Origin: Lewinella sp. LCG006
GTDB lineage: Bacteria > Bacteroidota > Bacteroidia > Chitinophagales > Saprospiraceae
Direction: 5' to 3'
NCBI RefSeq assembly: GCF_040784935.1
Contig: NZ_CP160680.1
Location: 3,132,501 to 3,196,500 of the forward strand
Length of the DNA stretch: 64,000 nucleotides
The notes beneath the pieces were generated by a model. That model saw only the letters and a program-made list of their open reading frames with translations. It was not told the DNA's origin and ran no database searches. A program made the translations under genes and the position numbers. Positions 10,172-38,036 of the stretch are shown piece by piece (within the stretch, counting starts at the first letter, position 1; each line of letters opens with the position of its first letter).

Positions 10172-10197
10172 TATTTAGCTTAATTCCAGTTACTAAT

Positions 10198-16228: not shown

Positions 16229-16750
16229 ATGAGGAAATTTTCGTTGTTTCTATACTATTTAATCCTTAATAAACTTCCACACTCATCGGTACCTTTAATC
16301 GGTTTACCATGTGAAAGATTAAAAGAATTTTTTGCAAAACGAATGTTTAGTTATTGCGGTACCAATGTGAATATAGGAAAAGGGGCCCGCTTTGGTAATG
16401 GAAAATATATAAGAATAGGAAATAACTCTGGGATTGGTATGAACGCAAAAGTGCCAAATAACATTCAAATTGGAGAGGATGTGATGATGGGACCTAATGT
16501 GACAATATTTGGTGCTAATCATGAGTTTTCAAGAACGGATATCCCCATGCGTAAACAAGGGATGAAGACATATCCACCAGTGGAGATTGAAGATGATGTG
16601 TGGATAGGAAGCAACGTTATTATTATGCCCGGCCTAGTCATTAAAAAAGGAACAATTATAGGAGCGGGTGCTGTCGTAACTAAGTCTTTTCCAGCCTATA
16701 GTATTATTGGCGGCAATCCTGCTAAATTTATTAGAAGTCGGAAAATGTGA
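16229..16750 (+). CDS. Maltose/galactoside-type O-acetyltransferase (LbH)
   Basis: 173 residues. Hexapeptide repeats run from residue 44 to about 160 (GTNVNIGKGARFGNGKYI, IGNNSGIGMNAKV, IGEDVMMGPNVTIFGANHEF). The catalytic histidine of the NodL/LacA/WcaF group is in GANHEFSRTDIPMRKQG, and the closing coil IGAGAVVTKSFPAYSIIGG is standard. It probably O-acetylates a sugar of the repeat unit with acetyl-CoA. It sits between two CE4-like deacetylase genes, overlapping the second by 4 bases, which suggests coordinated setting of the acetylation pattern. Confidence 0.88.
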   Translation: MRKFSLFLYYLILNKLPHSSVPLIGLPCERLKEFFAKRMFSYCGTNVNIGKGARFGNGKYIRIGNNSGIGMNAKVPNNIQIGEDVMMGPNVTIFGANHEFSRTDIPMRKQGMKTYPPVEIEDDVWIGSNVIIMPGLVIKKGTIIGAGAVVTKSFPAYSIIGGNPAKFIRSRKM

Positions 16751-19881: not shown

Positions 19882-21011
19882 TCATCGGGATCACTGCTCC
19901 AAGCAGTGTTGTCCTCATCAAAGGACAATTAAAGTACTTTACAGATTTGGGGTACAAATGTTATTTAATAGCCCCCGATGACGAGCGTACCAGAAATTAT
20001 TGTCAGGAAGAGGGAGCGATACTTTTACCCGTCGCGATCCATCGAGAGATTTCTATTTTCAATGATCTAAAGTCTTTATGGGTAATCATTAAGCATTTTT
20101 ACCGCATCCAACCTGATATTGTTAATGTAGGCACGCCCAAAATGGGGCTCTTGGGAAGTTTAGCGGGTAAGATGACAGGAGTAAAGACAAGAATCTACAC
20201 GTGTAGAGGTTATCGTTTTGAGCACGAGAAAGGAGCTATGCGGAAGGTTCTTATCGCTATGGAAAAATTGACCTCTTGGGCGGCTCATAGGGTAATTTGC
20301 ATAAGTTTATCTGTACAGGAACTAGGAGTGCAGCATGCTATATTTTCCAGAGAAAAAAGCAAAGTAATAAATAAAGGTAGCAGTAATGGGATAGAGCTGG
20401 ATCAGTTTTCTGCGAACCAGGTGCCCAAAGCAGCTACTGCTAGTTTGCGGGAAGCACTTGGTATCAATGATACGGATTTCGTTTATGGTTTTGTAGGAAG
20501 ACTCATTGATCGTAAAGGGATCAAGGAGTTGTATGATGCTTTTGAACGATTATCTCTGGTGCTCCCTAATATTAAATTGGTTGTTGTGGGCCCTGTCGAA
20601 AAAAGTCAAATTTCAGATTTGACCATTTTAGAAAAATTAGAGGAGCATAGTAACATCTTGATGGTGGGCAAACAAGCAGACGTACCACTATATTTATCAT
20701 TAATGGATGTCTTTGTTTTACCCGCTTGGTGGGAGGGATTTGGCAACGTACTGGTGCAAGCAGCGGCTATGGGAGTCCCCGTAATTAGTACCACGGGTAC
20801 AGGAAGCAGAGACGCGGTAAATGATAATTACAATGGGATATTAGTCCCTCCAAAAGATACACAAGCATTAGTAGAGGCCATGAAGCATTTGTATCAGAAT
20901 GAATCACTAAGAGAGCAGCTGGGTGAGAATGGGGTGGCCTGGTCGAAGCATTTCAAAAATACGACTATTTGGGAGGGGATGCGCGAATTATACGAGGAAC
21001 AAAATGTATAA
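19863..21011 (+). CDS. Family 4 glycosyltransferase with a non-canonical start region
   Basis: GT4 enzyme; donor half FVGRLIDRKGIKELYDAFER, VVVGPVEKSQ, LMVGKQADVPLYLSLMDVFV and WWEGFGNVLVQAAAMGVPVI with E-x7-A/E. The first canonical start in frame is a TTG at 19947, but the frame upstream reads RKKKLIIGITAPSSVVLIKG, the conserved first strand and glycine-rich loop of GT4 enzymes, and is open back to a stop at 19833. No ATG, GTG or TTG lies in that stretch. I therefore place the start near the ATC at 19863, giving an 18-base overlap with the previous gene. Either an ATC start is used or a base error removed the start codon. Confidence 0.85.
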   Translation: MRKKKLIIGITAPSSVVLIKGQLKYFTDLGYKCYLIAPDDERTRNYCQEEGAILLPVAIHREISIFNDLKSLWVIIKHFYRIQPDIVNVGTPKMGLLGSLAGKMTGVKTRIYTCRGYRFEHEKGAMRKVLIAMEKLTSWAAHRVICISLSVQELGVQHAIFSREKSKVINKGSSNGIELDQFSANQVPKAATASLREALGINDTDFVYGFVGRLIDRKGIKELYDAFERLSLVLPNIKLVVVGPVEKSQISDLTILEKLEEHSNILMVGKQADVPLYLSLMDVFVLPAWWEGFGNVLVQAAAMGVPVISTTGTGSRDAVNDNYNGILVPPKDTQALVEAMKHLYQNESLREQLGENGVAWSKHFKNTTIWEGMRELYEEQNV

Positions 21012-21636
21012 GAACTTAGTTAAACCAGCGTTGGATATGATGATAGGCATTATTGCCTTGATTTTATTATCTCCAGTAATGCTAGTAGTAGGGATTATGT
21101 TGGCCGTAGCAAACGGAGGAAGCCCGTTGTTTTTTCAACAGCGTCCTGGTAAAGATGGCAAGCTATTTCGTCTGGTCAAGTTTAAAACCATGACGGATAA
21201 AAAAAATGCTACTGGTCAGCTTCTGCCTGATAAGGATAGAATTACAAAAATTGGGGGATTGGTGAGAAAGACATCGCTGGATGAATTGCCCCAACTTGTT
21301 AATGTCGTCAAGGGAGATATGAGTATTGTAGGCCCTAGGCCCCTATTGGTCCAGTACCTTGAGTTGTACAATGATTTTCAGCACCAACGGCACTTGGTTC
21401 GGCCCGGAATAACGGGTTGGGCACAGATCAATGGCCGTAATGCGGTATCTTGGGAAGAGCGGTTTGAGCTGGATGTTTGGTACGTAAATCATATCTCCTT
21501 TCGTTTAGATCTTGTTATTCTCTTCAAAACCGTAGGTAAGATTTGGAAACAAGAAGGTATCAATGCTCAACCTGGAGCCACCATGACTGTTTTTACAGGA
21601 ACAAAAGAACAAAATCAACTCACTAAAAATAACTAA
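21004..21636 (+). CDS. Monotopic phosphoglycosyl transferase, PglC/WcaJ-like initiating sugar transferase
   Basis: 210 residues from the ATG at 21004 (8-base overlap with the previous gene). One N-terminal hydrophobic re-entrant helix (IIALILLSPVMLVVGIMLAV) is followed by the catalytic domain: LFFQQRPGKDGKLFRLVKFK, RKTSLDELPQLVNVVKGDMS with the catalytic D-E pair, VGPRPLL, and RPGITGWAQINGRNAVSWEE. It transfers a phospho-sugar to undecaprenyl phosphate and so starts the repeat unit. It is the short PglC form without the extra membrane helices of WcaJ. With PglE-, PglD- and PglF-like genes in the window, a bacillosamine-type first sugar is a reasonable inference. Confidence 0.93.
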   Translation: MYKNLVKPALDMMIGIIALILLSPVMLVVGIMLAVANGGSPLFFQQRPGKDGKLFRLVKFKTMTDKKNATGQLLPDKDRITKIGGLVRKTSLDELPQLVNVVKGDMSIVGPRPLLVQYLELYNDFQHQRHLVRPGITGWAQINGRNAVSWEERFELDVWYVNHISFRLDLVILFKTVGKIWKQEGINAQPGATMTVFTGTKEQNQLTKNN

Positions 21637-21638
21637 AA

Positions 21639-21866
21639 ATGGAAGAACAATTCTATGAAGCGTTTAGAGATGTCCTTGATGTTGAAGAAAAGGAATTTAA
21701 CAAATCGGACACCTTCAGGGATTATGAAGAGTGGGACTCTCTTGCGAACCTGTCGTTAATAGCCATGTTGGATGAAGAATATGGAATCATCATTCCAAAT
21801 GATGAATTCAAGAACATTGCGACCATAGGAGAATTAATTGCGGAAATAGAAAAGAGGAAAGGCTAA
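21639..21866 (+). CDS. Acyl carrier protein 1
   Basis: 75-residue acidic four-helix ACP. The phosphopantetheine serine is S34 in YEEWDSLANLSLIAMLDEEY; WDS replaces the DSL of fatty-acid AcpP, as is common in ACPs dedicated to secondary or polysaccharide-linked pathways. It starts 2 bases after the phosphoglycosyl transferase and 7 bases before a reductase, so it is translated with them. It probably tethers a short acyl chain for the enzymes encoded downstream. A holo-ACP synthase is not encoded in the window and must come from elsewhere. Confidence 0.9.
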   Translation: MEEQFYEAFRDVLDVEEKEFNKSDTFRDYEEWDSLANLSLIAMLDEEYGIIIPNDEFKNIATIGELIAEIEKRKG

Positions 21867-21873
21867 CTAAATC

Positions 21874-22620
21874 ATGAATAGTCCATTTAGTTTAGCTGGT
21901 AAAAACATTTTGGTGACAGGAGCCTCTTCCGGAATAGGAAGAGCACTGGCTATTGAGTGTTCGCTACAAGGGGCGGCAGTGACCATTTCTGGCAGAAATA
22001 GTGATCGACTAGCCGAAACCTTGGAATTGTTGTTCAAGGGCCCTGATCACCAGTGTTTTATCGCTGATTTGGATGTCGATGAAGAGGTCTATGCCTTGGC
22101 AGATAGTCTCTCACGCCTGGATGGGCTAATTCTAAATGCTGGTTTAATCAAGTCAATGCCTGCTAAATTCACCAAACGAGAGCACATTGATCAAATATTC
22201 AATGTTAATTTTTACAGTACTGCTCTTTTGGTGCAAAGGCTCTTGAAAGGTCGAAAGCTTAACACAGGTGCATCCATTTGTTTAATTTCATCGGTAGCCT
22301 CTCAGTATGTTTCGGTCGGTAACACTATTTATAGTGCTTCAAAGGGTGCTGTGAACTCTTACACCAAAGCGCTTGCCCTTGAGCTATCCAGTAAGCAAAT
22401 CAGGGTAAACGCGATTCTTCCAGGGTTCGTCAATACGAACCTGCTGAGTGATAGCCATGTTACTGCAGAAGAACTTGCCGTGCACGAAGGAAAATACCCC
22501 ATTGGGCGGTTTGGGACGCCCCAGGATGTTGCCTATCTAGGAGTTTATCTATTGTCGGATGCTTCTTCCTGGATGACAGGAAGTTTGTTGACTTTGGACG
22601 GAGGCTTTTCTTTAAGATAA
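21874..22620 (+). CDS. FabG-like short-chain dehydrogenase/reductase 1
   Basis: 248-residue classical SDR. Cofactor loop LVTGASSGIGRALAIE, LILNAGL (NAG motif), catalytic serine in ICLISSVASQYVS, YSASKGAVNSYTKAL with Y-x3-K, and LPGFVNTNL. The length and the end SWMTGSLLTLDGGFSLR are those of FabG-type 3-ketoacyl-ACP reductases. It is flanked by an ACP and a PglD-like acyltransferase and is one of two SDRs in the block. A role in reducing a 3-ketoacyl-ACP fits; a sugar 4-keto reductase is a possible alternative. Confidence 0.85.
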   Translation: MNSPFSLAGKNILVTGASSGIGRALAIECSLQGAAVTISGRNSDRLAETLELLFKGPDHQCFIADLDVDEEVYALADSLSRLDGLILNAGLIKSMPAKFTKREHIDQIFNVNFYSTALLVQRLLKGRKLNTGASICLISSVASQYVSVGNTIYSASKGAVNSYTKALALELSSKQIRVNAILPGFVNTNLLSDSHVTAEELAVHEGKYPIGRFGTPQDVAYLGVYLLSDASSWMTGSLLTLDGGFSLR

Positions 22621-22626
22621 ATATTG

Positions 22627-23259
22627 ATGAAGAATTTAGTAATTATTGGTGCTGGTGGATTCGCTAGGGAGATTTATGACTTAGCGAATTTTTGTTTTCA
22701 GGATGATTCCACATTTAAGGTGAAAGGCTTTCTTAGTGATGGCCCATCTACTATCCAGTCAATGGGGTACCCTCCTGTTCTTGGTACAGTAAGTAACTAC
22801 CAACTTGAAGAAGGTGATGTGTTTTTTTGTGGCATTGGGAATGTGAACGACCGTAAGAAAACGGTTGAAATTATTCTTGAAAAAGGTGGAGCGTTCATTA
22901 ATTTGATTCATCCTACTGCAATGATTTCTCCCAGTGTAAAAATTGGAAAGGGGGTTGGAATAAAAGCTTTTTCGGTGCTTGCCAGTGATGTCTCGATTGG
23001 AGACTTTTCTTTTCTACAGAGCTCTGTAATTATGGGGCATGATGTTAGCATCGGTAGGTTTTGTCATGTCAATTCATTTGCCTTTTTTGCCGGATATGCC
23101 CGGGTTGAGAATTTGGGCGTAGTTAATGCAGGTGCCAGATTAATACAAAATGTCAAAGTAGAGGAAGGTGCGGTAGTTGGTGTAGGTAGTGTCGTCTTAA
23201 AGCGAGTGAAAGCAGGGACTACAGTTTTTGGAAATCCAGCAAGAGTAATTCCGTCATAA
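22627..23259 (+). CDS. PglD/NeuD-like sugar acyltransferase
   Basis: 210 residues from the ATG at 22627. The N-terminal Rossmann-like sugar-nucleotide domain (MKNLVIIGAGGFAREIYDLA ... FFCGIGN) leads to a left-handed beta-helix with the PglD-type active site SVIMGHDVSIGRFCHVNSF and the closing GVGSVVLKRVKAGTTVFGNP. In bacillosamine synthesis PglD acetylates the 4-amino group of UDP-4-amino-2-acetamido sugars. Here it is embedded among ACP, SDR and ketosynthase genes, which suggests it may accept a longer acyl donor from the ACP rather than acetyl-CoA. The family is firm, the donor is inference. Confidence 0.85.
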   Translation: MKNLVIIGAGGFAREIYDLANFCFQDDSTFKVKGFLSDGPSTIQSMGYPPVLGTVSNYQLEEGDVFFCGIGNVNDRKKTVEIILEKGGAFINLIHPTAMISPSVKIGKGVGIKAFSVLASDVSIGDFSFLQSSVIMGHDVSIGRFCHVNSFAFFAGYARVENLGVVNAGARLIQNVKVEEGAVVGVGSVVLKRVKAGTTVFGNPARVIPS

Positions 23260-23301
23260 GCAGCTGTAATCTAGTTTATTCTCTGCGCAATACTTAATCT
23301 A

Positions 23302-24360
23302 ATGCCACAAGTAAAAATTAAAAATATCCATATTGAAGCTATGGCGGCGGCTGTTCCCGATCGCCAAGCCGCTACTAGTTCTTACGCGGAGAGTTTAGGT
23401 AAAGAAAAGGTGAGCTTGTGGGAAGATACCAATGGGATTTCAAGCAGATATCTTTCAAGCGAAGAGCAAACCGCTAGTGACTTAGGATTTGTTGCAGCTA
23501 ATGCTATTCTAGCAGATAAACAGATCGATAAGGAAGAAATTGGAGTAATCATCGTCGCTACGAGTACACCAGATTACAGAGGTCCGGCCACCGCTTGCGT
23601 TTTACACGGCCGTTTAGGATTGTCTATCGATTGCATTGCCTTCGATCTTAATTTAGGAGATTGCGGATTTGTTATTGGATTACAGACGGCAAGCTCCATT
23701 TTAGCAACGACGAACAAGCAGTATGCACTTCTAATTACAGGCGATACGACGAGTATGCAATTGGATTATTCGAAAGATTCTTCCTTGTTTTTTGGAGATG
23801 CAGCAAGCGCAGTATTATTAAAGAAAGATTTGGGGGCTAGGGAGGAGATTATAGTTGAGACAGGAGTTGAGTCAACGGGTTATGATGCTTTCATGTTAGC
23901 AGAAGGAGGGTTTCGAGATGATGCGCGAAAGAATAATCAGGGATATTTACAATTCTCAGAAGAGCATTGGTGGAGCTTTTTGAATAATCAATTCACGCGC
24001 CATCTTAATCATTTTTTGAGCAGCAATAAGCACGCTTTTTCGAAGGAGTCAGTATTAATATTGCCTCAAATGGGAAATAGGACAAATGTTGCTTTTGTAG
24101 AGGGAGTTGAAAGCCGGTTTAGCAATGTCCCGCGTGTTTTTGATCTTTTCGCGAATACCAGGGGAGCAACAATCCCTTTGGTTCTTGCACATTTATATGG
24201 AAAAGATACAAGCGATAAGGAGCTGGAAGTTGTAGGAACAGCCTTAGGAGAGGGAATGTCCTGGGGATTGACGCTATTTTCAGTGACGGCATCAGCAATA
24301 TTGCCAATAATTATTACTGCTGAGGTTTTTGCAGAAGGGAGTGTAGCTCGCGAAATTTAA
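23302..24360 (+). CDS. KASIII (FabH)-like protein lacking catalytic Cys and His
   Basis: 352 residues of thiolase fold, clearly FabH-related (VIIVATSTPDYRGPATACV, SLFFGDAASAVLLKK). Aligned with the adjacent KASIII, the active-site cysteine in NLACSGFVYG is replaced: this protein reads NLGDCGFVIG, with D120 at the cysteine position and a cysteine one residue later. The histidine in ALHQANV is replaced by proline (ILPQMGN, P255). Only the asparagine is kept (N285 in FANTRGATIPL). Such a protein cannot condense by the usual mechanism and is best read as a structural partner of the next gene, as PqsB is for PqsC. The gap to that gene is 10 bases. Confidence 0.85.
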   Translation: MPQVKIKNIHIEAMAAAVPDRQAATSSYAESLGKEKVSLWEDTNGISSRYLSSEEQTASDLGFVAANAILADKQIDKEEIGVIIVATSTPDYRGPATACVLHGRLGLSIDCIAFDLNLGDCGFVIGLQTASSILATTNKQYALLITGDTTSMQLDYSKDSSLFFGDAASAVLLKKDLGAREEIIVETGVESTGYDAFMLAEGGFRDDARKNNQGYLQFSEEHWWSFLNNQFTRHLNHFLSSNKHAFSKESVLILPQMGNRTNVAFVEGVESRFSNVPRVFDLFANTRGATIPLVLAHLYGKDTSDKELEVVGTALGEGMSWGLTLFSVTASAILPIIITAEVFAEGSVAREI

Positions 24361-24370
24361 AATAGGAATA

Positions 24371-25444
24371 ATGATCGTTCATAGTTTGATTGATAGTGTT
24401 TCGATAGAGGGTGTTTCAGTAGCACTACCTACTCAGCGTGTACCTGTATCAAGCTTTTATCCACTCTTTGGAGAGGATGTCGTTGATAAATTTTCAGATG
24501 TTACAGGCGTAAACAGCTACCATCGTTCTATTCCTCAACAAACGGCTGCAGATTTAGGATTTGAGGCCGCTTTGGACTTAATTAGTAAAAGTGATGTTGA
24601 TACCGATGAGATAAAATACCTGGTATTTGTTACCCAGAAACCTGATTTTCGAGTACCATCTACTGCTTTTCATTTACACCAGCGGTTAAAATTGAAGGAA
24701 GATTGCCTGTGCTTCGATCTAAACTTAGCCTGTTCCGGGTTTGTCTATGGCCTACAGGTCGTATCATCACTTTTACAGAACGCAGGGAAGGGCAAGGCAC
24801 TATTAATTACCGGAGATACTTCGCACCGGACCTTTTCGCCTGTTGACCGAACGCTGATAATGTTATTTGGCGATAGTGGTACTGCAACACTCATTGGTAA
24901 TGATCCTGCCTCTGAACAAATGCATTTTGCCCTCAGGACGAATGGAGAAAAATTCAAGAGTATCATTACGCCATCAGGCGCTTACCGCAATAGAAATGCT
25001 CCCGTTGAGAGGGTAGAATGGAACGATGGCATTGAACGTTCTGATTATGATACCCATATGAAAGGAATGGATGTCTTTAGTTTTTCCATTACAGATGTAC
25101 CTCGGCTACTGAAGGATTTTATGGCATCACTAGACACAACTCCTGATGATTATGACTGCTTTGCTTTGCATCAGGCTAATGTTTATATTTTAAAACAAAT
25201 CGCTAGAAAACTTAAGATGTCCATGGAGAAGATTCCGATTGCGCTTGATCGCTTCGGAAATAATAGTAGCAACTCTATTCCTCTGGTCTTGGCGGATCAT
25301 TTTGGTGGTCAAAATCAAGGTGAGAAAAGAATTATGATGAGCGGTTTTGGTGCTGGACTTTCTTGGGCTTGCTGTGATATTCATTTATCAACAAAGGTGA
25401 TTCATCCAATTATTTTTACAGATAAGTTCTTTTCTCCAGTCTAA
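24371..25444 (+). CDS. 3-oxoacyl-ACP synthase III (KASIII) with intact catalytic triad
   Basis: 357 residues. Cys121 in FDLNLACSGFVYGLQ, His267 in CFALHQANVYILKQIARK and Asn297 in RFGNNSSNSIPLVLADHF form the complete KASIII triad; LFGDSGTATLIG is the conserved dimer-core loop. KASIII condenses an acyl-CoA starter with malonyl-ACP to a 3-ketoacyl-ACP. Immediately upstream is a paralogue that has lost Cys and His, so the active form may be a heterodimer. In this operon the product would be handed to a FabG-like reductase on one of the two ACPs. Confidence 0.92.
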   Translation: MIVHSLIDSVSIEGVSVALPTQRVPVSSFYPLFGEDVVDKFSDVTGVNSYHRSIPQQTAADLGFEAALDLISKSDVDTDEIKYLVFVTQKPDFRVPSTAFHLHQRLKLKEDCLCFDLNLACSGFVYGLQVVSSLLQNAGKGKALLITGDTSHRTFSPVDRTLIMLFGDSGTATLIGNDPASEQMHFALRTNGEKFKSIITPSGAYRNRNAPVERVEWNDGIERSDYDTHMKGMDVFSFSITDVPRLLKDFMASLDTTPDDYDCFALHQANVYILKQIARKLKMSMEKIPIALDRFGNNSSNSIPLVLADHFGGQNQGEKRIMMSGFGAGLSWACCDIHLSTKVIHPIIFTDKFFSPV

Positions 25445-25513
25445 AGGAAGAGAAGAAAAGAAGCGGTAGGCCGCAGGAAGCCTGCTAACTAAAAATATAA
25501 TCAAAAGACAAAT

Positions 25514-25753
25514 ATGAGTAATCTGGAAAAATACAATCAAGCCTTTACAAAAGTCTTCGAAGTGGATGAGCATTTGCTAAACGAGGACTTTAATGCGGAC
25601 AGCTTAGATAAGTGGGATTCTATCACCCAGTTGAGCTTAGTGACGGAGTTGGAAGACACCTTTGATATTATGCTGGATTCAGAAGATCTTTTAAATCTCC
25701 GGTCGTACGAGGAAGGGAAAGTAATTCTTGGAAAATATGAAGTAAGTATCTAA
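25514..25753 (+). CDS. Acyl carrier protein 2
   Basis: 79 residues, acidic, four-helix ACP. Phosphopantetheine attachment at S36 in LDKWDSITQLSLVTELEDTF. Like ACP 1 it has WDS instead of DSL, but the two differ through most of their length, so they probably serve different partners. It lies 69 bases after the active ketosynthase and 3 bases before the second SDR. Two ACPs in one small cluster suggest one for chain building and one for loading by the ligase; which is which cannot be told. Confidence 0.9.
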   Translation: MSNLEKYNQAFTKVFEVDEHLLNEDFNADSLDKWDSITQLSLVTELEDTFDIMLDSEDLLNLRSYEEGKVILGKYEVSI

Positions 25754-25756
25754 TTA

Positions 25757-26518
25757 ATGGAAAAGGACGATAGAAGACTACTTACGAATAAAGTCGCATT
25801 AATAACCGGAGCAAGTAAAGGTATAGGTAAGGCTATAGCTGAACGTTACGCCGAAGAAGGAGCTACGGTATACGCTAATGCAAGAGAAGAAGGAGGCATA
25901 GATGAGTGGGCGAAAGTGCTTAGTGAAAACCATGGTGTACCCGTAAACCCTCTTTATTTTGATGTTCGTGACGAAAAAGCGATTCGTGAGAACATTATGA
26001 AGATTAAAAAGCAAAGCGGAGGTATTGATATTCTCGTGAATAACGCAGGAGTTGTAAGCTACGAGATGTTGGCTATGATTAATGCTAATCATTTTCGAGA
26101 AATGTTTGAAGTTAATGTAGTAGCGGTTATTCAGCTTATTCAACTCGTTTCCCGATTAATGCAAAGGCAAAAAAGCGGATCCATCATCAATATTTCCAGT
26201 ATTGTTGGTGTAGAAGGAGTGAGTGGACAATTGGCTTATTCAGCTACAAAAGGAGCGGTAATTTCGCTTACCAAATCTGCCGCAAAGGAACTGGCAGTTA
26301 ATAACATTCGTGTCAATGCCGTTGCTCCGGGGATGATTAATACAGAACGATTAAGTCAAGTCTTGACCGAAAAATTCAGTGATCGTGTGAATAGCATCGG
26401 CATGGGGCGTTTAGGTGAGCCGTCTGAAGTTGCTGATACTTGTGTCTATCTGGGGTGCGATCTTTCAAAGTATGTCACAGGCCAGATAATCAAGGTAGAC
26501 GGAGGCACAATTATCTGA
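25757..26518 (+). CDS. FabG-like 3-ketoacyl-ACP reductase (SDR 2)
   Basis: 253 residues, classical SDR: ALITGASKGIGKAIAERYAE, ILVNNAGVVSYEML with the NNAG motif, INISSIVGVEGVSGQLAYSA with catalytic serine, YSATKGAVISLTKSAAKELA with Y-x3-K, and RVNAVAPGMINTERL. It is closer to housekeeping FabG than SDR 1. It directly follows ACP 2 and very likely reduces the 3-keto group made by the KASIII pair to 3-hydroxyacyl-ACP with NADPH. No dehydratase or enoyl reductase gene is present, so a 3-hydroxyacyl end product is the simplest prediction. Confidence 0.9.
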   Translation: MEKDDRRLLTNKVALITGASKGIGKAIAERYAEEGATVYANAREEGGIDEWAKVLSENHGVPVNPLYFDVRDEKAIRENIMKIKKQSGGIDILVNNAGVVSYEMLAMINANHFREMFEVNVVAVIQLIQLVSRLMQRQKSGSIINISSIVGVEGVSGQLAYSATKGAVISLTKSAAKELAVNNIRVNAVAPGMINTERLSQVLTEKFSDRVNSIGMGRLGEPSEVADTCVYLGCDLSKYVTGQIIKVDGGTII

Positions 26519-26534
26519 TCAATACGCTGAATAA

Positions 26535-27917
26535 ATGTTTTTAGGACTAAACGAAAAAAACAGTACATCAACGGCCATTATTGATGACAGTAAGGCGAGT
26601 GTGACATATGGTGAATTATGTACGTTTTCACAAACCTTTTCTTCTTTTGTAAAAAAAAGGACACTGGCGTTCATTCTTTGTGATAATGAAATTGGAGCTA
26701 TTGCCGGATTTATTGCAAGCCTTTCCAATGCTGTTGTTCCTTTGTTGCTGAGTAGTAAAATAGATAAAGTATTACTCGATCAGCTTATAGAAAAATACCA
26801 TCCTACCTACTTCTGGCAAAGTAGTGATACCGAATTTGATTTTAAGTCGGAGCCTATATTTAGCGCTTATGGATATGAGCTTTTAACAACAGGTCTGACT
26901 CCTTATAGTTTGCATGAAGACCTGTCAATGTTGTTATCTACCTCTGGTAGTACGGGAAGTCCTAAATTGGTACGGCATAGCTACAAAAACGTAGAACGTA
27001 ACGCGGAAAATGTAGCCCGATTTTTTGAATTATCAACAGAAGATCGCCCAATTGCTGCTTTGCCAATACACTATACAATGGGGCTTTCTGTCGTTGTGAG
27101 CCACCTCTATGCAGGTGCCACTATTCTTTTGACAAAGAGAGGCCTACTTGATCCAGCATTTTGGCAATTTCTTAAAGAACAAAAAGCAACCAGTTTTACG
27201 GGAGTTCCTTACAACTTCGAATTACTGCACAAGTTGAGGTTTTTCAGGATGGATTTGCCATCCTTAACCTTACTTACCCAAGGAGGAGGAAAGCTTTCGG
27301 AGCAGTTGTTTAAAGACTTTGCAGACTTTGCGGATCGAACCGGTAAAAAGTTTATTGCTACGTATGGACAAACAGAAGGCACCGCGAGAATGGCTTACCT
27401 ACCCGCACATCTAGCCACCCAAAAGACGGGGAGTATAGGGTATGCTATTCCTGAAGGGAGATTGTACGTGGTAAATGACAAAGGAGAAGAACTACTAGAT
27501 AGAGAACAGGTAGGAGAGATGGTATACGAAGGGCCTAATGTCACAATGGGATACGCTACAGAAGGAGTAGATTTGAGCAAAGGAGACGAAAACCACGGGG
27601 TTTTATATACCGGAGATATAGTGAAACGAGATGAAGATGATGCTTACTATATCATAGGGAGAAAAAACAGGTTTCTTAAGTTATACGGTTTGAGAATAAG
27701 TTTAGACGAAATTGAACAAATGATAAAATCCAACTTCAAGGTTGATTGTGCTTGTTCAGGGGATGATCAGAAAATGATAGTTAGGATAACTGAGGAAGAT
27801 ATCATTAAGGAAGTAAGTAAATACATTGCCGATAAAACGCAGCTGTATCATCAAGCTTTTGAAGTTGTTTATGAGGAGACAATTTTAAGAAACGAAGCAG
27901 GGAAAATAATGTATTAG
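26535..27917 (+). CDS. AMP-forming acyl-CoA/acyl-ACP ligase
   Basis: 460 residues of the ANL superfamily. A3 phosphate loop LLSTSGSTGSPKLVRH (about 133-148), A5 ATYGQTEGTARM, A7/A8 LYTGDIVKRDEDDAYYIIGR and KLYGLRISLDEIEQ, and a C-terminal lysine in RNEAGKIMY at the A10 position. It is shorter than typical acyl-CoA synthetases (about 520), mainly in the N-terminal half. In a cluster with two ACPs it probably activates a free carboxylic acid and loads it on an ACP (or CoA), supplying the starter or an alternative acyl group. The substrate is not predictable from sequence. Confidence 0.88.
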   Translation: MFLGLNEKNSTSTAIIDDSKASVTYGELCTFSQTFSSFVKKRTLAFILCDNEIGAIAGFIASLSNAVVPLLLSSKIDKVLLDQLIEKYHPTYFWQSSDTEFDFKSEPIFSAYGYELLTTGLTPYSLHEDLSMLLSTSGSTGSPKLVRHSYKNVERNAENVARFFELSTEDRPIAALPIHYTMGLSVVVSHLYAGATILLTKRGLLDPAFWQFLKEQKATSFTGVPYNFELLHKLRFFRMDLPSLTLLTQGGGKLSEQLFKDFADFADRTGKKFIATYGQTEGTARMAYLPAHLATQKTGSIGYAIPEGRLYVVNDKGEELLDREQVGEMVYEGPNVTMGYATEGVDLSKGDENHGVLYTGDIVKRDEDDAYYIIGRKNRFLKLYGLRISLDEIEQMIKSNFKVDCACSGDDQKMIVRITEEDIIKEVSKYIADKTQLYHQAFEVVYEETILRNEAGKIMY

Positions 27918-27940
27918 TTTTCACTTGAGCACCTTTTTTG

Positions 27941-28561
27941 ATGTATAAAATCAAGAAATTCGTTAACGCTTATCGTAGTTCTAATACCTACATTCTATCA
28001 AATGATACGGATAATGCCATTATGATAGATGCAGGAGGCCCTGACGTAGATGTCGTTAATACATGGTTAGAAAATAACAATAAACAACTGGTTGCAATAT
28101 TACTTACGCATGAACATGCGGATCATTGCTTAGGGCTGCCACAGTTTTACCATCAGCATAAATGTGATATTTATTGCACACCAGAATGTGCTAAGAATAT
28201 TGGTATTAGCAAGCAAAATATGTCATTTTACATAGATGAGATCACTACTTTTGAAATCGATTTACCAGTTAAATATGTTGAGGATAATCAATCGTTAAGT
28301 ATTGGAGGATTTGAGCTAAAGGTGTTAAAGACACCAGGTCATAGTCCGGGTGGATGCTGTTTTTATACCCAAGACCTAATATTTACGGGTGATACTATTT
28401 TAAATGGAATCAAATCCCCTGTTACATTTCCTCACAGTAGTCGAAAAGCCTACAAAGCGTCCATTGATAAAATACTTGACGTATTACAACCCAAAATGTT
28501 GATTTGGCCTGGGCATGGTGAAGCATTTAGCTATGTTGATAAGGCTCAATTAGTATTTTAA
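27941..28561 (+). CDS. Metallo-beta-lactamase-fold hydrolase (glyoxalase II-like)
   Basis: 206 residues from the ATG at 27941. Metal-binding motif LLTHEHADHCLG (HxHxDH), TPGHSPGG with the next histidine, FTGDTIL with the bridging aspartate, and WPGHGE with the last. This is the glyoxalase II/YcbL pattern, and such enzymes hydrolyse thioesters. As the last gene of the ACP/ketosynthase block it could act as an editing or release thioesterase on acyl-ACP or acyl-CoA. That role is inferred from position; a general lactonase or thioesterase is equally possible. Confidence 0.85.
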   Translation: MYKIKKFVNAYRSSNTYILSNDTDNAIMIDAGGPDVDVVNTWLENNNKQLVAILLTHEHADHCLGLPQFYHQHKCDIYCTPECAKNIGISKQNMSFYIDEITTFEIDLPVKYVEDNQSLSIGGFELKVLKTPGHSPGGCCFYTQDLIFTGDTILNGIKSPVTFPHSSRKAYKASIDKILDVLQPKMLIWPGHGEAFSYVDKAQLVF

Positions 28562-32165: not shown

Positions 32166-33323
32166 ATGCATCAACCAAAAATCTGGCTTTCCTCCCCCCA
32201 CATGTCGGGCCGCGAGGAGGTCTACGTGGCCGAAGCTTTTGCTACCAATTGGATAGCGCCGCTGGGCCCTCACGTCAATGCTTTTGAAGAAGTACTTGCC
32301 CAACGCGTAGGCGTGGCCCATGCTGCTGTGCTAAGTAGTGGTACGGCGGCGATTCACCTGGCACTTATCTTGTTGGAGGTAGGACCGGGTGATGTCGTCT
32401 TGTGCCAGAGCATGACCTTCTCGGCTTCTGCCAACCCCATCAAGTACCAGGGTGCCGAACCTGTTTTCATCGACTCCGAAGCGGACACCTTCAACATGGA
32501 CCCTCAGGCCCTGGAAGCAGCGATCATCGACCAAAGGGCCCAGGGCAAGCAGATCAAAGCGATCATTCCGGTACACCTCTACGGCCTTTCCGCCAAGATG
32601 AAAGAGATCATGGCCATTGCCGAAAAGTACAGCATCCCCGTCGTCGAAGATGCTGCCGAAGCACTGGGGGCCAGCTTGGATGGTCGCCCCTGTGGCAGCT
32701 TCGGGAAACTGGGCATCCTCAGTTTCAATGGCAACAAGATCATTACCACCAGCGGGGGAGGAGCCCTGGTGGGCAACGACAAAACCCTCATCGCCCAATC
32801 CCGCTTCCTGGCTACCCAGGCGCGTGATCAGGCTCCCCACTATCAGCATTCGCACGTGGGCTACAATTATCGCCTCAGCAATGTACTGGCCGGTATTGGT
32901 CGCGGCCAAATGGAGGTGCTCGACGAACGTATCGCCCAACGTCGCGCTAATTTCGAGCGTTACCGCGCCTACTTCCAGCAATGGAACGAGCAAGGCTTCC
33001 ACATCCAGTTTCAGGAAGAACAAGAAGGCATGTTCAGCAACCGCTGGCTAAGCTGCATTCTCGTAGATCCCGAGAAAAACAAAGGGCTCACCCGCGAAAC
33101 CATCCGCCTCACCCTGGAGGCCGACAACATCGAAGCCCGCCCCCTGTGGAAGCCCATGCACCTCCAGCCCGTCTTTCAGGATTGCGCCTACTACGGTGGC
33201 ACCACCGCTGAGCACCTCTTCGATATCGGTCTCTGCCTCCCCAGCGGCTCCAACCTCACGGAGGATGATTTTGAGCGCATCTTTGCGAGTTTGGGGAGGG
33301 TGTTGGAGGGTAGGTTAGTGTAG
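32166..33323 (+). CDS. DegT/DnrJ/EryC1/StrS aminotransferase, PglE-like
   Basis: 385 residues, full family length. The Schiff-base lysine is K191 in LSFNGNKIITTSGGGAL, typical of PglE/PerA UDP- or GDP-4-keto-6-deoxy sugar aminotransferases (SFNGNK type) rather than of the FdtB type seen at 1646. EDAAEALGAS and GYNYRLSNVLAGIGRGQME are also conserved. The N-terminus SSPHMSGREEVYVAEAFATN is that of PglE. With the FlaA1/PglF-like dehydratase at 36123 and the PglD-like enzyme at 22627 it would form UDP-4-amino-4,6-dideoxy-GlcNAc. GC content is visibly higher than in the acyl and assembly blocks. Confidence 0.9.
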   Translation: MHQPKIWLSSPHMSGREEVYVAEAFATNWIAPLGPHVNAFEEVLAQRVGVAHAAVLSSGTAAIHLALILLEVGPGDVVLCQSMTFSASANPIKYQGAEPVFIDSEADTFNMDPQALEAAIIDQRAQGKQIKAIIPVHLYGLSAKMKEIMAIAEKYSIPVVEDAAEALGASLDGRPCGSFGKLGILSFNGNKIITTSGGGALVGNDKTLIAQSRFLATQARDQAPHYQHSHVGYNYRLSNVLAGIGRGQMEVLDERIAQRRANFERYRAYFQQWNEQGFHIQFQEEQEGMFSNRWLSCILVDPEKNKGLTRETIRLTLEADNIEARPLWKPMHLQPVFQDCAYYGGTTAEHLFDIGLCLPSGSNLTEDDFERIFASLGRVLEGRLV

Positions 33324-33359: not shown

Positions 33360-34410
33360 ATGTGTCCCTCCCGAGGAGGACATCGTTTAGAGATGTTGTG
33401 CTGTTTGCGGTTAAGGTTTTTGTTTCCTCTAGTGTGATCAAAAGTGTCCCTCTGGAGGGACCGATCCAGAGGATTGAGGGAAGAGAGAGATCGCTACTAG
33501 CTGGTGTTATCGTGTTTGCGGATATATGCTTGTTTGGGCGAGGGCTGTCCACCTCCGCCCTGCGGGCACCTCCTCTAGAGGAGGAGATCGTTTAGGGATG
33601 TTGTCCTGTTTGCGGATAGGTTTTTGTTTCCTCTAGTGCGATCAAAAGTGTCCCTCTGGATGGACCGATCCAGAGGATTGAGGGAGGAGAGAGATCGCTA
33701 CTAGCTGGTGTTATCGTGTTTGCGGATATATGCTTGTTTGGGCGAGGGCTGTCCACCTCCGCCCTGCGGGCACCTCCTCTAGAGGAGGATATCGTTTAGG
33801 GATGTTGTGCTGTTTGCGGTTAAGGTTTTTGTTTCCTCTAGTGTGATCAAATGTGTCCCTCTGGATGGACCGATCCAGAGGATCGAGGGAGGAGAGAGAT
33901 CGCTACTAGCTGGTGTTATCGTGTTTGCGGATATATGCTTGTTTGGGCGAGGGCTGTCCACCTCCGCCCTGCGGGCACCTCCTCTAGAGGAGGAGATCGT
34001 TTAGGGATGTTGTCCTGTTTGCGGATAGGTTTTTGTTTCCTCTAGTGCGATCAAAAGTGTCCCTCTGGATGGACCGATCCAGAGGATTGAGGGAGGAGAG
34101 AGATCGCTACTAGCTGGTGTTATCGTGTTTGCGGATATATGCTTGTTTGGGCGAGGGCTGTCCACCTCCGCCCTGCGGGCACCTCCTCTAGAGGAGGACA
34201 TCGTTTAGGGATGTGCTGTTTGCGGATAGGTTTTTGTTTCCTCTAGTGCGATCAAAAGTGTCCCTCTGGATGGACCGATCCAGAGGATCGAGAGAGGAGA
34301 GAGATCGCTACTAGCTGGTGTTATCGTGTTTGCGGATATATGCTTGTTTGGGCGAGGGCTGTCCACTCCCGACCTTCGGCGACCCCTGCGAACGGGGACA
34401 TGAGCGGGCC
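33360..34410 (+). repeat. Tandem array of five units of about 204 bp
   Basis: A direct-repeat array. The marker CGTGTTTGCGGATATATGCT begins at 33511, 33715, 33920, 34124 and 34325, giving periods of 204, 205, 204 and 201 bases. Each unit carries two perfect or near-perfect palindromes, CCTCTGGATGGACCGATCCAGAGG-like and CCTCCTCTAGAGGAGG. Copies differ by scattered substitutions and small indels. Short frames of 60-77 codons are open on both strands merely because of the unit length and repetition. It fills the gap between the aminotransferase and the Wzi gene. Confidence 0.93.
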
Positions 34411-34447: not shown

Positions 34448-36106
34448 ATGAAATCAAAAAAACACGCTCACGGAGCTCATCCCCTGCGTAAATCTATGCG
34501 CGTGGTTACGCTGTTTATATTGGCAGCCTGCCTGCAGCTCCCCCTCTCTGCCCAATTTTCCACCATCCAGCTCAATCAGGCAGAACGGGCCTGGTACGAG
34601 AACGATCTCTTGCGCAGCGAGCACAATATCCATACCGCCATCTTGCCCTGGCGCAGCTCCGAGGTGAGCCCCTACAGCCGTAAGGTGGAATTGCTTGCCG
34701 ATACCATCGCCAAGGCACCTGGCTTCAACAACTGGTTTGACCGCAAAGCTTTTCAGGAAAACCTGCTTTCTTTTCAGGGCGAAGACTACTGGCTCACCAT
34801 CAATCCCGCCGTCTATTTTGAATATGGGCAGGAAAGCGAATCCCCGGATTACGAAACCACCTACCGCAACAGCCGTGGCCTGCGTGTGGAAGGGCAGCTG
34901 GGCAAGCGTTTTACCTTTTATACGTCGCTGGTAGAAAGCCAGGCTCGCTTTGCGGCGCACGTCAACCGACAAGCAGGTACCTCCAGGGTGGTGCCCGGTT
35001 ACTGGCTTAGAAAAGGCTTCCGTGATTTTGCTTCCGATTTTGCTTATGCATCGGGAGAAATCGCCTATACGCCCGCAAAGTTTTTCCACCTACGGCTGGG
35101 GCGTGGCAAGCAGTTTCTGGGGGAAGGCTACCGTTCCATGTTGATGTCGGACAACAGTGTCAACTATCCTTTCTTTCGGATGGAGACGACGGTGGGTAAG
35201 CTCAAATACGTCAACCTGTGGGCCGTCATGAATGATATTCGCCCGGAGGTAGAGCTGGCCGACGAAGTGTTTGCCCGCAAGTACCTTTCCATGCACTACT
35301 TGAGTGTAAACATTGGCCAACGTTGGAACATGGGCGTATTTGAAGGCATCATGTGGGGCGATGAGTTGAATCGCTACGGTTTTGATGTTAATTTTCTCAA
35401 CCCGGTCATACTGTACCGTCCGGTGGAATTTTCGGTAGGTGCCAATGGTGGCAATACCCTCATGGGCATCAATACCAGCTACCAGTTTAGCCGCGGCATC
35501 AAAGCCTACGGACAGGTGGCCATTGATGAGTTTACCTTTTCTGAAATCCGTGACTGGAGCAAGGGACCTTGGCAGAATATGCTGGCCTGGCAGCTGGGGG
35601 TAAAATGGGGCGATGCCCTGGGCATCCGCAACCTCTTTTTGCGGGCCGAATACAACGCTGCTCGCCCACATACCTACAGTCACCGTGATGTGATCACCAA
35701 TTGGGGGCACTACAACCAGCCATTGGCGCACCCCTTGGGGGCCAACTTCCGGGAAATTTTAGTACAAACCAATTACCGCAAAGGTCGCTGGCAAGGCCAG
35801 GCTGCCGTGCATACTGCTTTGCTGGGGCGTGATGAAAACAAGGAAGCCAACTGGGGTGGAAATATTTACAAGTCTTTTGATGTACGCTCCGCAGATACCG
35901 GGCTATTTCCTGGCAGTGGGGTAGAGAGCAAGCTCCTTTACTGGCGAGCAGAAATTGCGTACCTTGCCAACCCTGTTTACAACCTACGCTTGCAACTAGG
36001 TATACAAAGCCGTACCGAGGATGTACCTGCTTTGGGCTTACCCAATAGCCAGCACATCTACTTTGGCCTGCGTACCAATATGTATGAATTGTATCAGGAC
36101 TATTAG
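34448..36106 (+). CDS. Capsule assembly Wzi-family outer-membrane protein
   Basis: 552 residues from the ATG at 34448; an earlier ATG at 34340 would begin inside the repeat array. A hydrophobic signal segment (VVTLFILAACLQLPLSAQ) ends in an AQ cleavage-like site. The body is beta-rich, alternating aromatic strands with short turns, e.g. GRGKQFLGEGYRSMLMSDNS, FFRMETTVGKLKYVNLWAVM and FLNPVILYRPVEFSVG, the pattern of Wzi-type 18-strand barrels. In E. coli K30 Wzi binds capsule at the cell surface. It is followed at 16 bases by the FlaA1-like gene, tying it to the polysaccharide locus. Confidence 0.85.
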   Translation: MKSKKHAHGAHPLRKSMRVVTLFILAACLQLPLSAQFSTIQLNQAERAWYENDLLRSEHNIHTAILPWRSSEVSPYSRKVELLADTIAKAPGFNNWFDRKAFQENLLSFQGEDYWLTINPAVYFEYGQESESPDYETTYRNSRGLRVEGQLGKRFTFYTSLVESQARFAAHVNRQAGTSRVVPGYWLRKGFRDFASDFAYASGEIAYTPAKFFHLRLGRGKQFLGEGYRSMLMSDNSVNYPFFRMETTVGKLKYVNLWAVMNDIRPEVELADEVFARKYLSMHYLSVNIGQRWNMGVFEGIMWGDELNRYGFDVNFLNPVILYRPVEFSVGANGGNTLMGINTSYQFSRGIKAYGQVAIDEFTFSEIRDWSKGPWQNMLAWQLGVKWGDALGIRNLFLRAEYNAARPHTYSHRDVITNWGHYNQPLAHPLGANFREILVQTNYRKGRWQGQAAVHTALLGRDENKEANWGGNIYKSFDVRSADTGLFPGSGVESKLLYWRAEIAYLANPVYNLRLQLGIQSRTEDVPALGLPNSQHIYFGLRTNMYELYQDY

Positions 36107-36122
36107 TGATCAGTATCCCCCC

Positions 36123-38036
36123 ATGAAATTCAATTCCCAAAAATCAATCTTAGGCGCTAGCCCCATGGCCGGTTACGTCACCAAGCTGTTTATCTTTGGC
36201 GTGGATATGGTGTATGCGCTCATTGCCATCACCATTGCCCTTTTACTGACGGGGAATTTTGAGTTCGAGCGGCTGAATCTTTTACTCACCTGGGGGCCCG
36301 TCTTGTTGTTGATCTTCCGAGCCATTTCCTTTATCGTCTTTCGCACTTATCTCCTGATCGTTCGCTACGTAGGGGAGAAAGATTACAAAAACGTCTTTTA
36401 CGCCGTCAGTCTTTCCTCGGCGGTCTTCTTTTTGTTGCTCAAATTTCTGGCTACCCCCTTTAAGCCTAAGGAGGTTTTACCCATTGTTCTGGTCGACTAT
36501 TTCGTGCTGCTACTTCTGGCGGGCGGCTCGCGCATTGTCCTGCGCTTGCTGTTTGACCGTCTTCGCTTGCAGGGCGCCAATCGTTTGAATACGGTCATTT
36601 TTGGTGCAGGAGAGCTGGGGGCCATGCTCTACAATGTGCTCAAACAGAATACGACCCACAATTATCGGGTCATGGCCTTTTTTGATGACAATCCCAGGGT
36701 TCATAAAAAGTACCTCAATGGCGTTCGGATTTATAATGCTGAAAAATCCTTTGCTTCGGTTGTCAAAAAGTACAACATCAAGTACGCGATCATTGGTATC
36801 AATCAGTTGCCGGAAGCGCGTAGAGTAGCCTTTATCAATGAGTGTCTGGAGCACCAGGTGAAAGTGCTAAAGGTACCCCCTACGGAAAACTGGTTGAACA
36901 GTACGCTGAACTTGGGCCAATTGCGTAAAATTCGTTTTGAAGACTTGCTGAGCCGGCCTCCGATCATTTTGGATCAGGAAGGTATCAGTCAGAGTATCAA
37001 AGGAAAAGTCGTTTTGGTGACCGGTTGTGCAGGGTCGATTGGTAGTGAAATCGTGCGGCAATTGCTGCCTTACGGACCCCGTTTGCTAGTGGGCTTGGAC
37101 CAGGCGGAAACGCCGCTGGCACAACTGGAGCTGAGTTTGAAAAAAGCAGTAAAGAATAAATTGTTCTTGCCCGTTATTGGCGATGTACGCAACCAAGCGA
37201 TGTTGGAGCAATTGTTTGCGACCTACCAGCCGGAATACGTTTTCCACGCGGCAGCCTATAAGCACGTCCCGATCATGGAGCATTTTCCTGCCGAGGCCAT
37301 CCGCACCAATGTCGTAGGGACGATGCACCTGGCGGATTTGGCAGTAGCCTACAAGGTGCAAAAGTTTGTCATGATATCGACCGATAAAGCCGTCAATCCC
37401 AGCAACGTCATGGGCGCTTCGAAGCGGATTGCCGAAATCTATGTCCAGGCACTCAGCAGCAGAGGCGATCATCAGACCCAGTTTATTACGACCCGTTTTG
37501 GGAATGTTCTGGGCTCTAATGGTTCGGTGATTCCTATTTTTAAGAGGCAAATAGAACAAGGCCAGGCCGTAACCGTTACGCATCCGGAGGTCACCCGTTT
37601 CTTTATGACCATCCCTGAAGCATGCCAGTTGGTACTGGAAGCGGGCGCGATGGGCAAAGGCAGTGAAATTTTTATCTTTGACATGGGCGAGTCGGTCAAA
37701 ATTGTGGACCTTGCCCGTAAGATGATCCAGATGGCCGGGCTGGTTCCGGGGCAGGACATCGAAATTCGCTTTACCGGACTGCGCCCCGGCGAAAAGCTCT
37801 ACGAAGAGTTGCTCGATGATGGTGAGGGGGTGATTGCTACCCACCATCCCAAGATTCAAAAAGCAGCAGTAAGGGCCAATGATTACGAGGAAGTAAAAGC
37901 AGAAATGGAGGCCCTTGTGAAGCTGATGGATCAAAAAGATGTGTTGCAGCTGGTAAGCAAGATGAAGGATATTGTACCAGAGTTTACCAGTCGCAATTCG
38001 AAATTTTCTGTTCTTGACAACAGCGAAATAAACTAA
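36123..38036 (+). CDS. FlaA1/CapD/PglF-like membrane-anchored UDP-sugar 4,6-dehydratase
   Basis: 637 residues from the ATG at 36123. Four hydrophobic N-terminal helices (to about residue 130), a CoA-binding-like Rossmann domain (LNTVIFGAGELGAMLYNVLK) and then the extended SDR: VLVTGCAGSIGSEIVRQLLP, DVRNQAML, FHAAAYKHVPIMEHFPAEAI, MISTDKAVNPSNVMGASKRI and RFGNVLGSNGSVIPIF. The usual YxxxK tyrosine is methionine in MGASK, a feature of this inverting and retaining dehydratase group. It converts UDP-GlcNAc to a 4-keto-6-deoxy sugar, the first step towards bacillosamine or related amino sugars, and feeds the PglE-like aminotransferase at 32166. Confidence 0.93.
   Translation: MKFNSQKSILGASPMAGYVTKLFIFGVDMVYALIAITIALLLTGNFEFERLNLLLTWGPVLLLIFRAISFIVFRTYLLIVRYVGEKDYKNVFYAVSLSSAVFFLLLKFLATPFKPKEVLPIVLVDYFVLLLLAGGSRIVLRLLFDRLRLQGANRLNTVIFGAGELGAMLYNVLKQNTTHNYRVMAFFDDNPRVHKKYLNGVRIYNAEKSFASVVKKYNIKYAIIGINQLPEARRVAFINECLEHQVKVLKVPPTENWLNSTLNLGQLRKIRFEDLLSRPPIILDQEGISQSIKGKVVLVTGCAGSIGSEIVRQLLPYGPRLLVGLDQAETPLAQLELSLKKAVKNKLFLPVIGDVRNQAMLEQLFATYQPEYVFHAAAYKHVPIMEHFPAEAIRTNVVGTMHLADLAVAYKVQKFVMISTDKAVNPSNVMGASKRIAEIYVQALSSRGDHQTQFITTRFGNVLGSNGSVIPIFKRQIEQGQAVTVTHPEVTRFFMTIPEACQLVLEAGAMGKGSEIFIFDMGESVKIVDLARKMIQMAGLVPGQDIEIRFTGLRPGEKLYEELLDDGEGVIATHHPKIQKAAVRANDYEEVKAEMEALVKLMDQKDVLQLVSKMKDIVPEFTSRNSKFSVLDNSEIN

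Follow-up and report, generated by a model that had tools for sequence, protein, structure and literature searches.

The DNA analyzed here (the window) is a 64,000-nucleotide stretch of Lewinella sp. LCG006 (NZ_CP160680.1, positions 3,132,501 to 3,196,500) in which nine genes follow directly on that of an initiating phosphoglycosyl transferase (PGT). They encode two acyl carrier proteins (ACP1 and ACP2), two short-chain dehydrogenase/reductase (SDR) ketoreductases (KR1 and KR2), a PglD/VioB-like sugar N-acyltransferase, two proteins of the ketoacyl-ACP synthase III (KASIII) family (KAS-A and KAS-B), an AMP-forming ligase (LIG) and a metallo-beta-lactamase (MBL)-fold hydrolase. Domains were assigned to the nine proteins by Pfam and NCBIfam profile searches. 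The open reading frames (ORFs) all lie on the + strand and are separated by gaps of 2-69 bases when measured from the PGT stop onward; positions, packing and protein families agree with a first-pass annotation made from the sequence alone. PglE-like and PglF-like genes, which would make a 4-amino sugar, lie downstream, and the arrangement supports the proposal in that annotation that a dedicated acyl-ACP system supplies a PglD/VioB-type N-acyltransferase encoded next to a PGT.

Table 1 Cassette genes and associated sugar genes, with positions in the window and the evidence for each assignment
Feature	Coordinates	Strand	Evidence
PGT, PglC/WcaJ-C-terminal-type initiating sugar-1-P transferase	20992..21636	+	PF02397 206.9 bits; start chosen within 20923 ORF
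ACP1	21639..21866	+	PF00550 40.4 bits; W-D-S invariant
KR1, SDR ketoreductase	21874..22620	+	FabG-like SDR; Ser/Tyr/Lys kept in three orthologues
PglD/VioB-like sugar N-acyltransferase	22624..23259	+	TIGR03570 173.8 bits, above cut-off 160.8; GHD motif
KAS-A, catalytically degenerate KASIII (Cys to Asp, His to Pro)	23302..24360	+	PF08545/PF08541; residue alignment; AlphaFold2 KASIII fold
KAS-B, intact KASIII (Cys-His-Asn)	24371..25444	+	PF08545/PF08541
ACP2	25514..25753	+	PF00550 19.8 bits, just below Pfam cut-off 20.8; W-D-S kept
KR2, SDR ketoreductase of ligase module	25757..26518	+	TIGR01830 228.1 bits, below cut-off 297.75; Ser/Tyr/Lys kept
AMP-forming ligase, probably acyl-ACP ligase	26535..27917	+	PF00501 141 bits; TSGSTGSPK motif
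MBL-fold hydrolase, candidate thioesterase	27938..28561	+	PF00753 77.4 bits; HxHxDH motif
PglE/LegC-type aminotransferase (DegT-type)	32166..33323	+	PF01041 319 bits; TIGR04181 (LegC family) 382 bits, below cut-off 420
PglF/CapD-type UDP-GlcNAc 4,6-dehydratase	36021..38036	+	PF02719 392.7 bits

Conservation of the nine-gene cassette

A search with a KAS alignment as query, of which the best 80 of 559 matches were taken as named loci, identified the identical order ACP1-KR1-PglD-KAS-A-KAS-B-ACP2-KR2-LIG-MBL in two of these loci. In Gelidibacter mesophilus DSM 14095 (locus L125) identities to the window were, in gene order, 54, 52, 68, 34, 60, 57, 56, 48 and 44%; in a metagenome-assembled genome (MAG) labelled Chitinophaga pinensis (locus L126) they were 46, 39, 57, 26, 50, 46, 42, 41 and 28%, with L126 KAS-A scored against KAS-B. 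All nine genes were open in each of the three genomes. Since the same order is present in two other genomes, the clustering is not due to chance, and the nine genes are a defined cassette. The PGT-like genes of L125 and L126 are located after the cassette and not before it, and L125 has six further upstream genes in common with the window (51-62% identity). Directly after its MBL gene, L125 carries a holo-ACP-synthase (AcpS)-like gene (L125:14114-14455; TIGR00556, 70.1 bits against a cut-off of 45.35), and a phosphopantetheinyl transferase of this type beside the cassette is consistent with ACP-dependent chemistry.

Alignment of the three cassettes showed no variation in W-D-S, which includes the carrier serine, for either ACP, and KR1 and KR2 retain Ser, Tyr and Lys throughout; a pattern search for these SDR residues missed three rows that are intact in the alignment. 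The GHD motif of the PglD-like protein was invariant in 7/7 aligned sequences, and its best solved relative was VioB (7txp), with PerB and PglD (3bss) also matched. Pattern searches of the three cassettes recovered the ligase TSGSTGSPK and MBL HxHxDH motifs from all of them, the MBL GHxxG pattern from the window and L125 only, and the ligase YTGD and C-terminal lysine patterns from the window protein only. None of the 25 NCBIfam models listed for the ligase reached its own cut-off. As the first-pass annotation had stated, no dehydratase family was present among the matches listed for the nine proteins. PF13561, which bears an enoyl reductase name, matched both SDRs, yet KR1 and KR2 are FabG-like proteins with Ser, Tyr and Lys in place.

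Smaller gene sets of the same kind are common. When gene content was counted in fetched DNA (matches above 22 bits), 49 of the best 80 named loci had a PglD-like gene, 46 had PglD-, ACP- and KR-like genes together and 46 had two KAS genes. A ligase-like gene was found in 18 (at least 40% identity in 6) and an MBL gene in 14. KAS-A used alone as query gave no confirmed match in the genome-contig or viral-contig collections, probably because KAS-A diverges fast. Against 248 genomes of the order, it matched 31 genomes besides G000, and in the regions fetched from 19 of these 31 all KASIII ORFs longer than 250 aa were intact. Searches for further cassettes used L125 KAS-B against sets of 80 and 92 genomes (one match, at 40% identity, and none) and L126 KAS-B against 329 genomes (no match); they had no internal positive control and so bound little. 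KAS-B matched 54 plasmid records, every one below 60% identity. A different cassette, PglD-KR-ACP-ACP-ligase-KAS followed by MBL and PglE, recurred in Prevotellaceae/Bacteroidales (L184, L189 and L202), with ligases 24-26% identical to that of the window.

KAS-A, a degenerate ketosynthase under purifying selection

The 'KASIII pair' of the first-pass annotation is indeed made up of two KASIII-family proteins, but only KAS-B is intact. Both are ACP_syn_III proteins, so the KASI/II domains of a type II polyketide synthase (PKS) ketosynthase/chain-length factor pair (KS-CLF) are absent; KAS-B has the Cys-His-Asn triad, whereas KAS-A does not. At the Cys/His/Asn positions, alignment placed D/P/N in the window KAS-A, N/N/Q in L125 and H/S/gap in L126, which means that the window protein has lost two of the three catalytic residues (Asn is kept) and both orthologues, as aligned, all three. 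The triad was kept in 180/180 distinct KASIII proteins other than KAS-A and in 0/3 KAS-A (186 proteins of 290-412 aa scoring above 30 bits, 183 of them distinct after three duplicates). Without length and score limits it was found in 60/60 and 126/128 proteins of two locus sets, both exceptions being KAS-A orthologues, and a separate 37-row alignment retained the catalytic residues in 36/36 rows apart from KAS-A. A frame error or a relocated nucleophile at 'GDCGF' was also considered for the window protein and rejected: the shifted Cys is absent from the orthologues (GNAGF and GHISV), so a conserved nucleophile in a new position is excluded.

Phylogenetic analysis of 39 sequences with IQ-TREE recovered the KAS-A trio and the KAS-B trio each as a clade (ultrafast bootstrap support of 100), and independent duplication within each genome was rejected (approximately unbiased test, p-AU 2.9e-6), indicating that KAS-A and KAS-B already existed as a pair before the three cassettes diverged. 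Of the nine genes, KAS-A was the least identical in two genome pairs and shared last place with MBL in the third. Nevertheless, codon-position 1/2/3 identities were 0.48/0.61/0.32 for the window and L125 and 0.39/0.51/0.34 and 0.40/0.51/0.32 for the other pairs, and 11 of 38 near-invariant KASIII columns were kept by all three KAS-A. In simulations of neutral drift (100 runs each), KAS-A acquired a mean of 7.3 stops on drifting to 60% identity (minimum 1) and 3.85 on drifting to 80% (minimum 0). The open frame and the codon-position identities identify KAS-A as fast-evolving yet kept, and show that it is under purifying selection. A decaying remnant without a role, a reading that the low identity and the different drift of the catalytic positions in each genome might suggest, is thus very improbable: the gene is open and in the same position in 3/3 cassettes, its codon identity falls from position 2 to 1 to 3, and the near-invariant columns persist.

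An AlphaFold2 single-chain model of KAS-A adopted a KASIII fold (per-residue confidence, pLDDT, 91.5; predicted TM score, pTM, 0.92) with 4efi as best match (TM 0.88), a fold that is partly expected as the input alignment consisted mostly of intact KASIII proteins. The KAS-A segment T-P-D-Y-R-G-P-A aligned with S-P-D-H-H-D-P-S of PqsD, which makes KAS-A residue 94 the equivalent of FabH/PqsD residue 87. At this position the KAS-A trio has G, G and S, and 14/180 other distinct KASIII proteins have G, S or A. FabH residue 87 is reported to govern primer size (acetyl with a bulky Phe, long chains with a small Thr), and its PqsD counterpart, Asp87, to line the channel from the second monomer (PMC3734052, available part). 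By analogy, the small residue 94 is a hint, although not proof, that KAS-A has a role at the primer pocket.

Pairs of this sort are known among KASIII proteins. According to the available part of the source, PqsB lacks all three catalytic residues and pairs with PqsC as a pseudo-symmetric heterodimer (PMC4807248), so that an active KASIII is likewise accompanied by a KASIII-like subunit without catalytic residues in a pathway with a ligase (PqsA) and a thioesterase (PqsE); unlike the system proposed here, the pqs pathway is CoA-based and yields quinolones. KAS-A resembles such a partner subunit in the loss of the FabH triad, but kinship beyond that of KASIII proteins in general was not found: KAS-B matched PqsC with E=1.2e-6 compared to 3.3e-53 for 4efi, and PqsB was not among 60 of the 65 sequence matches or the first 50 structure matches listed for KAS-A. 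As KAS-B is not a relative of PqsC, any resemblance to the PqsBC pair is a matter of convergence. The lipstatin synthase LstAB is likewise an adjacent, divergent KAS-III pair that forms a heterodimer, but it condenses long acyl-CoAs and catalytic roles are reported for both subunits (PMC12141560, available part). Because KAS-A is kept open under purifying selection, our reading is that it serves KAS-B as a structural subunit, much as PqsB serves PqsC, but with a separate origin.

Ligase branch and sugar chassis

A ligase search at 1e-30 matched 19 of 395 genomes. ACP2-KR2-LIG without KAS occurred in L107, L108 and L113, each time followed by LuxE- and LuxC-family genes, and the ACP2-LIG pair in L109-L112, with L109 near siderophore-type genes (IucA_IucC); as far as their surroundings were examined, the ligases of L105, L106 and L109 lie outside sugar loci. 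In Bacteroidales MAGs, a ligase with an ACP2-like carrier adjoined KAS in L148 and L151 (both PglD-ACP-ACP-LIG-KAS-KR, the first ACP of L151 being visible in one of two scans only) and in L195 (PglD-ACP-LIG-KAS-KR), and L142 had KR-KR-LIG-ACP-KAS with a second KAS further along. The ACP2-KR2-ligase part therefore appears to be a separable module, probably for primer supply, and since it recurs separately in this way, plain 3-hydroxybutyrate is not the safest guess for the product. The modules of L108 and L113 with LuxE/LuxC sit within polysaccharide loci, where acyl-reductase chemistry on sugars is possible.

The cassette as a whole looks like an R-group unit that can be exchanged while the sugar chassis is conserved, because a congener (G616, loci L093/L209) combines the same chassis with a different, shorter acylation cassette. 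Its PglE, 34340 gene, PglF, NUDIX gene and glycosyltransferase were 92, 92, 91, 80 and 86% identical to those of the window, while the interval between PGT (56%) and PglE instead held ACP-KAS-KR-PglD with 33-48% identity. Nucleotide homology began at 32163, at the PglE start, and upstream was limited to a 337-base PGT stretch (65%). G+C was 0.40 for the cassette compared to 0.57 for PglE. Between the PglE-like and 34340 genes, the window contains a 204-bp tandem repeat (33373-34366; 4.9 copies, 96% matches) without an Rfam match, whose counterpart in G616 (L209) aligned as a single copy. The low-G+C part of the locus upstream carries IS5-family and DDE transposase genes (3777-4553 and 6296-7459), followed at 7847-11238 by a NeuB family gene, a CMP-transferase fused to a KDN-9-P-phosphatase-type domain and a gene for a polysialyltransferase-like protein.

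Proposed pathway, alternatives and precedents

The gene content, the conserved order, the residue loss and purifying selection of KAS-A, and the replacement in one congener lead us to propose, with moderate confidence, that the locus carries an exchangeable R-group cassette in which a ligase-primed KAS-A/KAS-B heterodimer would give a 3-hydroxyacyl-type product destined for a 4-amino sugar; the reactions, the heterodimer and the product are all predictions. The PglE, PglF, PglD-like and PGT genes together point to a UDP-QuiNAc4N route with subsequent N-acylation, for which PglF and PglE would supply UDP-QuiNAc4N. In the simplest reading, the AMP ligase would load a free carboxylic acid onto ACP2 as primer, KR2 would reduce it, and KAS-B would extend it once with malonyl-ACP1, working as a heterodimer with the dead KAS-A, which would complete the dimer and close the KAS-B acyl pocket. 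KR1 would then reduce the 3-keto group, and with no dehydratase among the matches listed the product would stay at 3-hydroxyacyl-ACP1, a 3-hydroxyacid primer leading instead to 3,5-dihydroxyacyl. Acylation of the sugar at its 4-amino group would fall to the PglD/VioB-like enzyme, dead-end thioesters would be cleared by the MBL protein and PGT would start the repeat unit with the acylated sugar. An attractive but speculative route starts from a C4 3-keto- or 3-hydroxyacid primer; one malonyl extension would give 3,5-dihydroxyhexanoyl, and the ligase would stand in for the first condensation. More tentatively still, KAS-A could be a KASIII-type 'chain-length factor', a dead subunit kept solely to dimerize with an active KASIII and to open the pocket (Gly/Ser at FabH-87) for a bulky, ligase-derived and KR-tailored primer, so that the N-acyl group would come from a ligase-primed mini-PKS converging on PqsA/B/C/E logic.

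Several observations weigh against the proposed pathway. Just three nine-gene cassettes were found, one of them in a MAG, and the swap was seen in one congener of three (the contig of G580 was too short and G1050 gave no PglF match at 1e-150). L126 KAS-A shares no more than 24-27% identity with the other two, which makes its residue-level alignment uncertain, and FastTree placed KAS-A as sister to KAS-B plus L128 (support 0.783), a grouping that IQ-TREE did not recover. Ligase relatives (L105-L113) also occur away from KAS genes, so the ACP2-KR2-ligase half may have a role of its own.

Two described systems are of the same kind with smaller gene sets, so that the first-pass remark on a lack of described systems with the full set is not supported as regards the kind. 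In the O-polysaccharide locus of Flavobacterium psychrophilum, wfpC, wfpD, wfpE, wfpF and wfpG (KAS, ACP, KAS, KR and a PglD homologue) are proposed, alongside nuclear magnetic resonance structures, to build and attach 3,5-dihydroxyhexanoyl on Qui2NAc4N (PMC6519341), and lipopolysaccharide antigenicity varies among strains whose loci differ in predicted R-group genes. What the window shares with this system is a polysaccharide locus that combines PglE/PglF with a KAS, an ACP, a KR and a PglD homologue, as well as exchangeability on a conserved chassis (one case here, strain-variable R-group genes there). It differs in that the available part of the source names no ligase, second ACP, second KR or MBL for the wfp set, and in that two intact KAS, assumed here as a wfp trait, are not found in the cassette (KAS-A D/P/N). 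The Pseudomonas syringae viosamine island comprises vioS (KASIII), vioB, vioR (KR) and acp, and a vioR mutant lost the modified sugar (PMC3927599). Here too a KASIII, an ACP, a KR, whose role is supported by mutant mass spectrometry, and an N-acyltransferase serve a 4-amino-6-deoxy sugar, but with one KAS and one ACP, for a flagellin glycan and from a dTDP-sugar, and the available part mentions no ligase. Amides found on bacillosamine-type sugars include, according to a review, those of (S)-3-hydroxybutyryl, 3,5-dihydroxyhexanoyl and 2-hydroxyglutaryl groups (PMC3210612, available part).

The closest competitor, which we consider unlikely, is a simple version of the first-pass proposal: KAS-B would join acetyl-CoA and malonyl-ACP, a KR would reduce the product, and the PglD-like enzyme would transfer 3-hydroxybutyryl, with ligase and MBL confined to recycling or repair. 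One intact KASIII and the lack of a dehydratase among the matches listed agree with this, 3-hydroxybutyryl bacillosamine is known in Pseudoalteromonas (PMC3210612) and P. syringae makes such a group with one KAS, KR and ACP plus VioB (PMC3927599), as far as the available parts of both sources go. However, it is the four-gene ACP-KAS-KR-PglD sets, such as that of the congener (L093), that resemble the P. syringae set. Another reason is needed for the additional ACP and KR, the ligase and the MBL that 3/3 nine-gene cassettes retain, and KAS-A is unexplained; the product is possible but leaves the ligase without a role.

Two further alternatives are each improbable. In the first, KAS-B would act twice, making 3,5-dihydroxyhexanoyl from acetyl-CoA by two malonyl extensions as in F. 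psychrophilum, for which the two KAS, ACP, KR and PglD homologue of wfp set a precedent (PMC6519341, available part) and to which the two KRs of the window cassette would correspond. Only one of the two KAS has catalytic residues, the ligase is left unexplained, and the same product made with a ligase-supplied primer falls under the pathway proposed above. Iterative action is moreover unusual for KASIII. In the second, KAS-B/ACP1/KR1 would serve the PglD-like enzyme while ligase/ACP2/KR2 would serve another acyltransferase or glycan, as the KAS-free modules preceding LuxE and LuxC (L107, L108 and L113) and other acyltransferases nearby (e.g., 16229-16750) might indicate; however, in 3/3 cassettes the ligase part is enclosed by KAS-B and MBL in a single block, and each block has one PglD-like gene. 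Less probable is that the acylated sugar nucleotide is converted to a legionaminic-type nonulosonate and not loaded by PGT as QuiNAc4NR. The window has a NeuB-family gene and a CMP-transferase, LegC is the best PglE model, and Flexibacter maritimus is known to have an N-acyl nonulosonate (PMC3210612, available part), but the domain fused to the CMP-transferase is of the KDN-9-P-phosphatase type (185.7 bits, above the cut-off of 180) and Epimerase_2 (PF02350) was absent from the 99.78% complete genome (control positive in 11/14), which makes the legionaminic route unlikely. Least probable of all is a KSQ/MadB-like malonyl-ACP decarboxylase producing an acetyl primer: Cys-less ketosynthase homologues with this activity exist, but His is expected to drive decarboxylation in them, and KAS-A has lost His in 3/3 cassettes and Asn, as aligned, in 2/3.

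Overall, dedicated ACP/KAS/KR and PglD-like N-acylation of a bacillosamine-type sugar is well supported and already known in kind, and the earlier reading is right in kind but incomplete in mechanism. The full nine-gene set was not found described in the literature searches made for it (open-licence papers), so that what is new, as far as searched, is a conserved variant of nine genes that includes a dead KASIII partner and a ligase branch. N-acyl groups on bacillosamine-type sugars contribute to the antigenic distinctness of polysaccharides, and the separable ligase module suggests that bacteria combine primers and extenders, diversifying their surface glycans. A conserved dead KASIII in a sugar cassette would extend KASIII heterodimers (PqsBC and LstAB) to polysaccharide chemistry, and the cassette would offer a compact system for studying the role of a non-catalytic ketosynthase partner.

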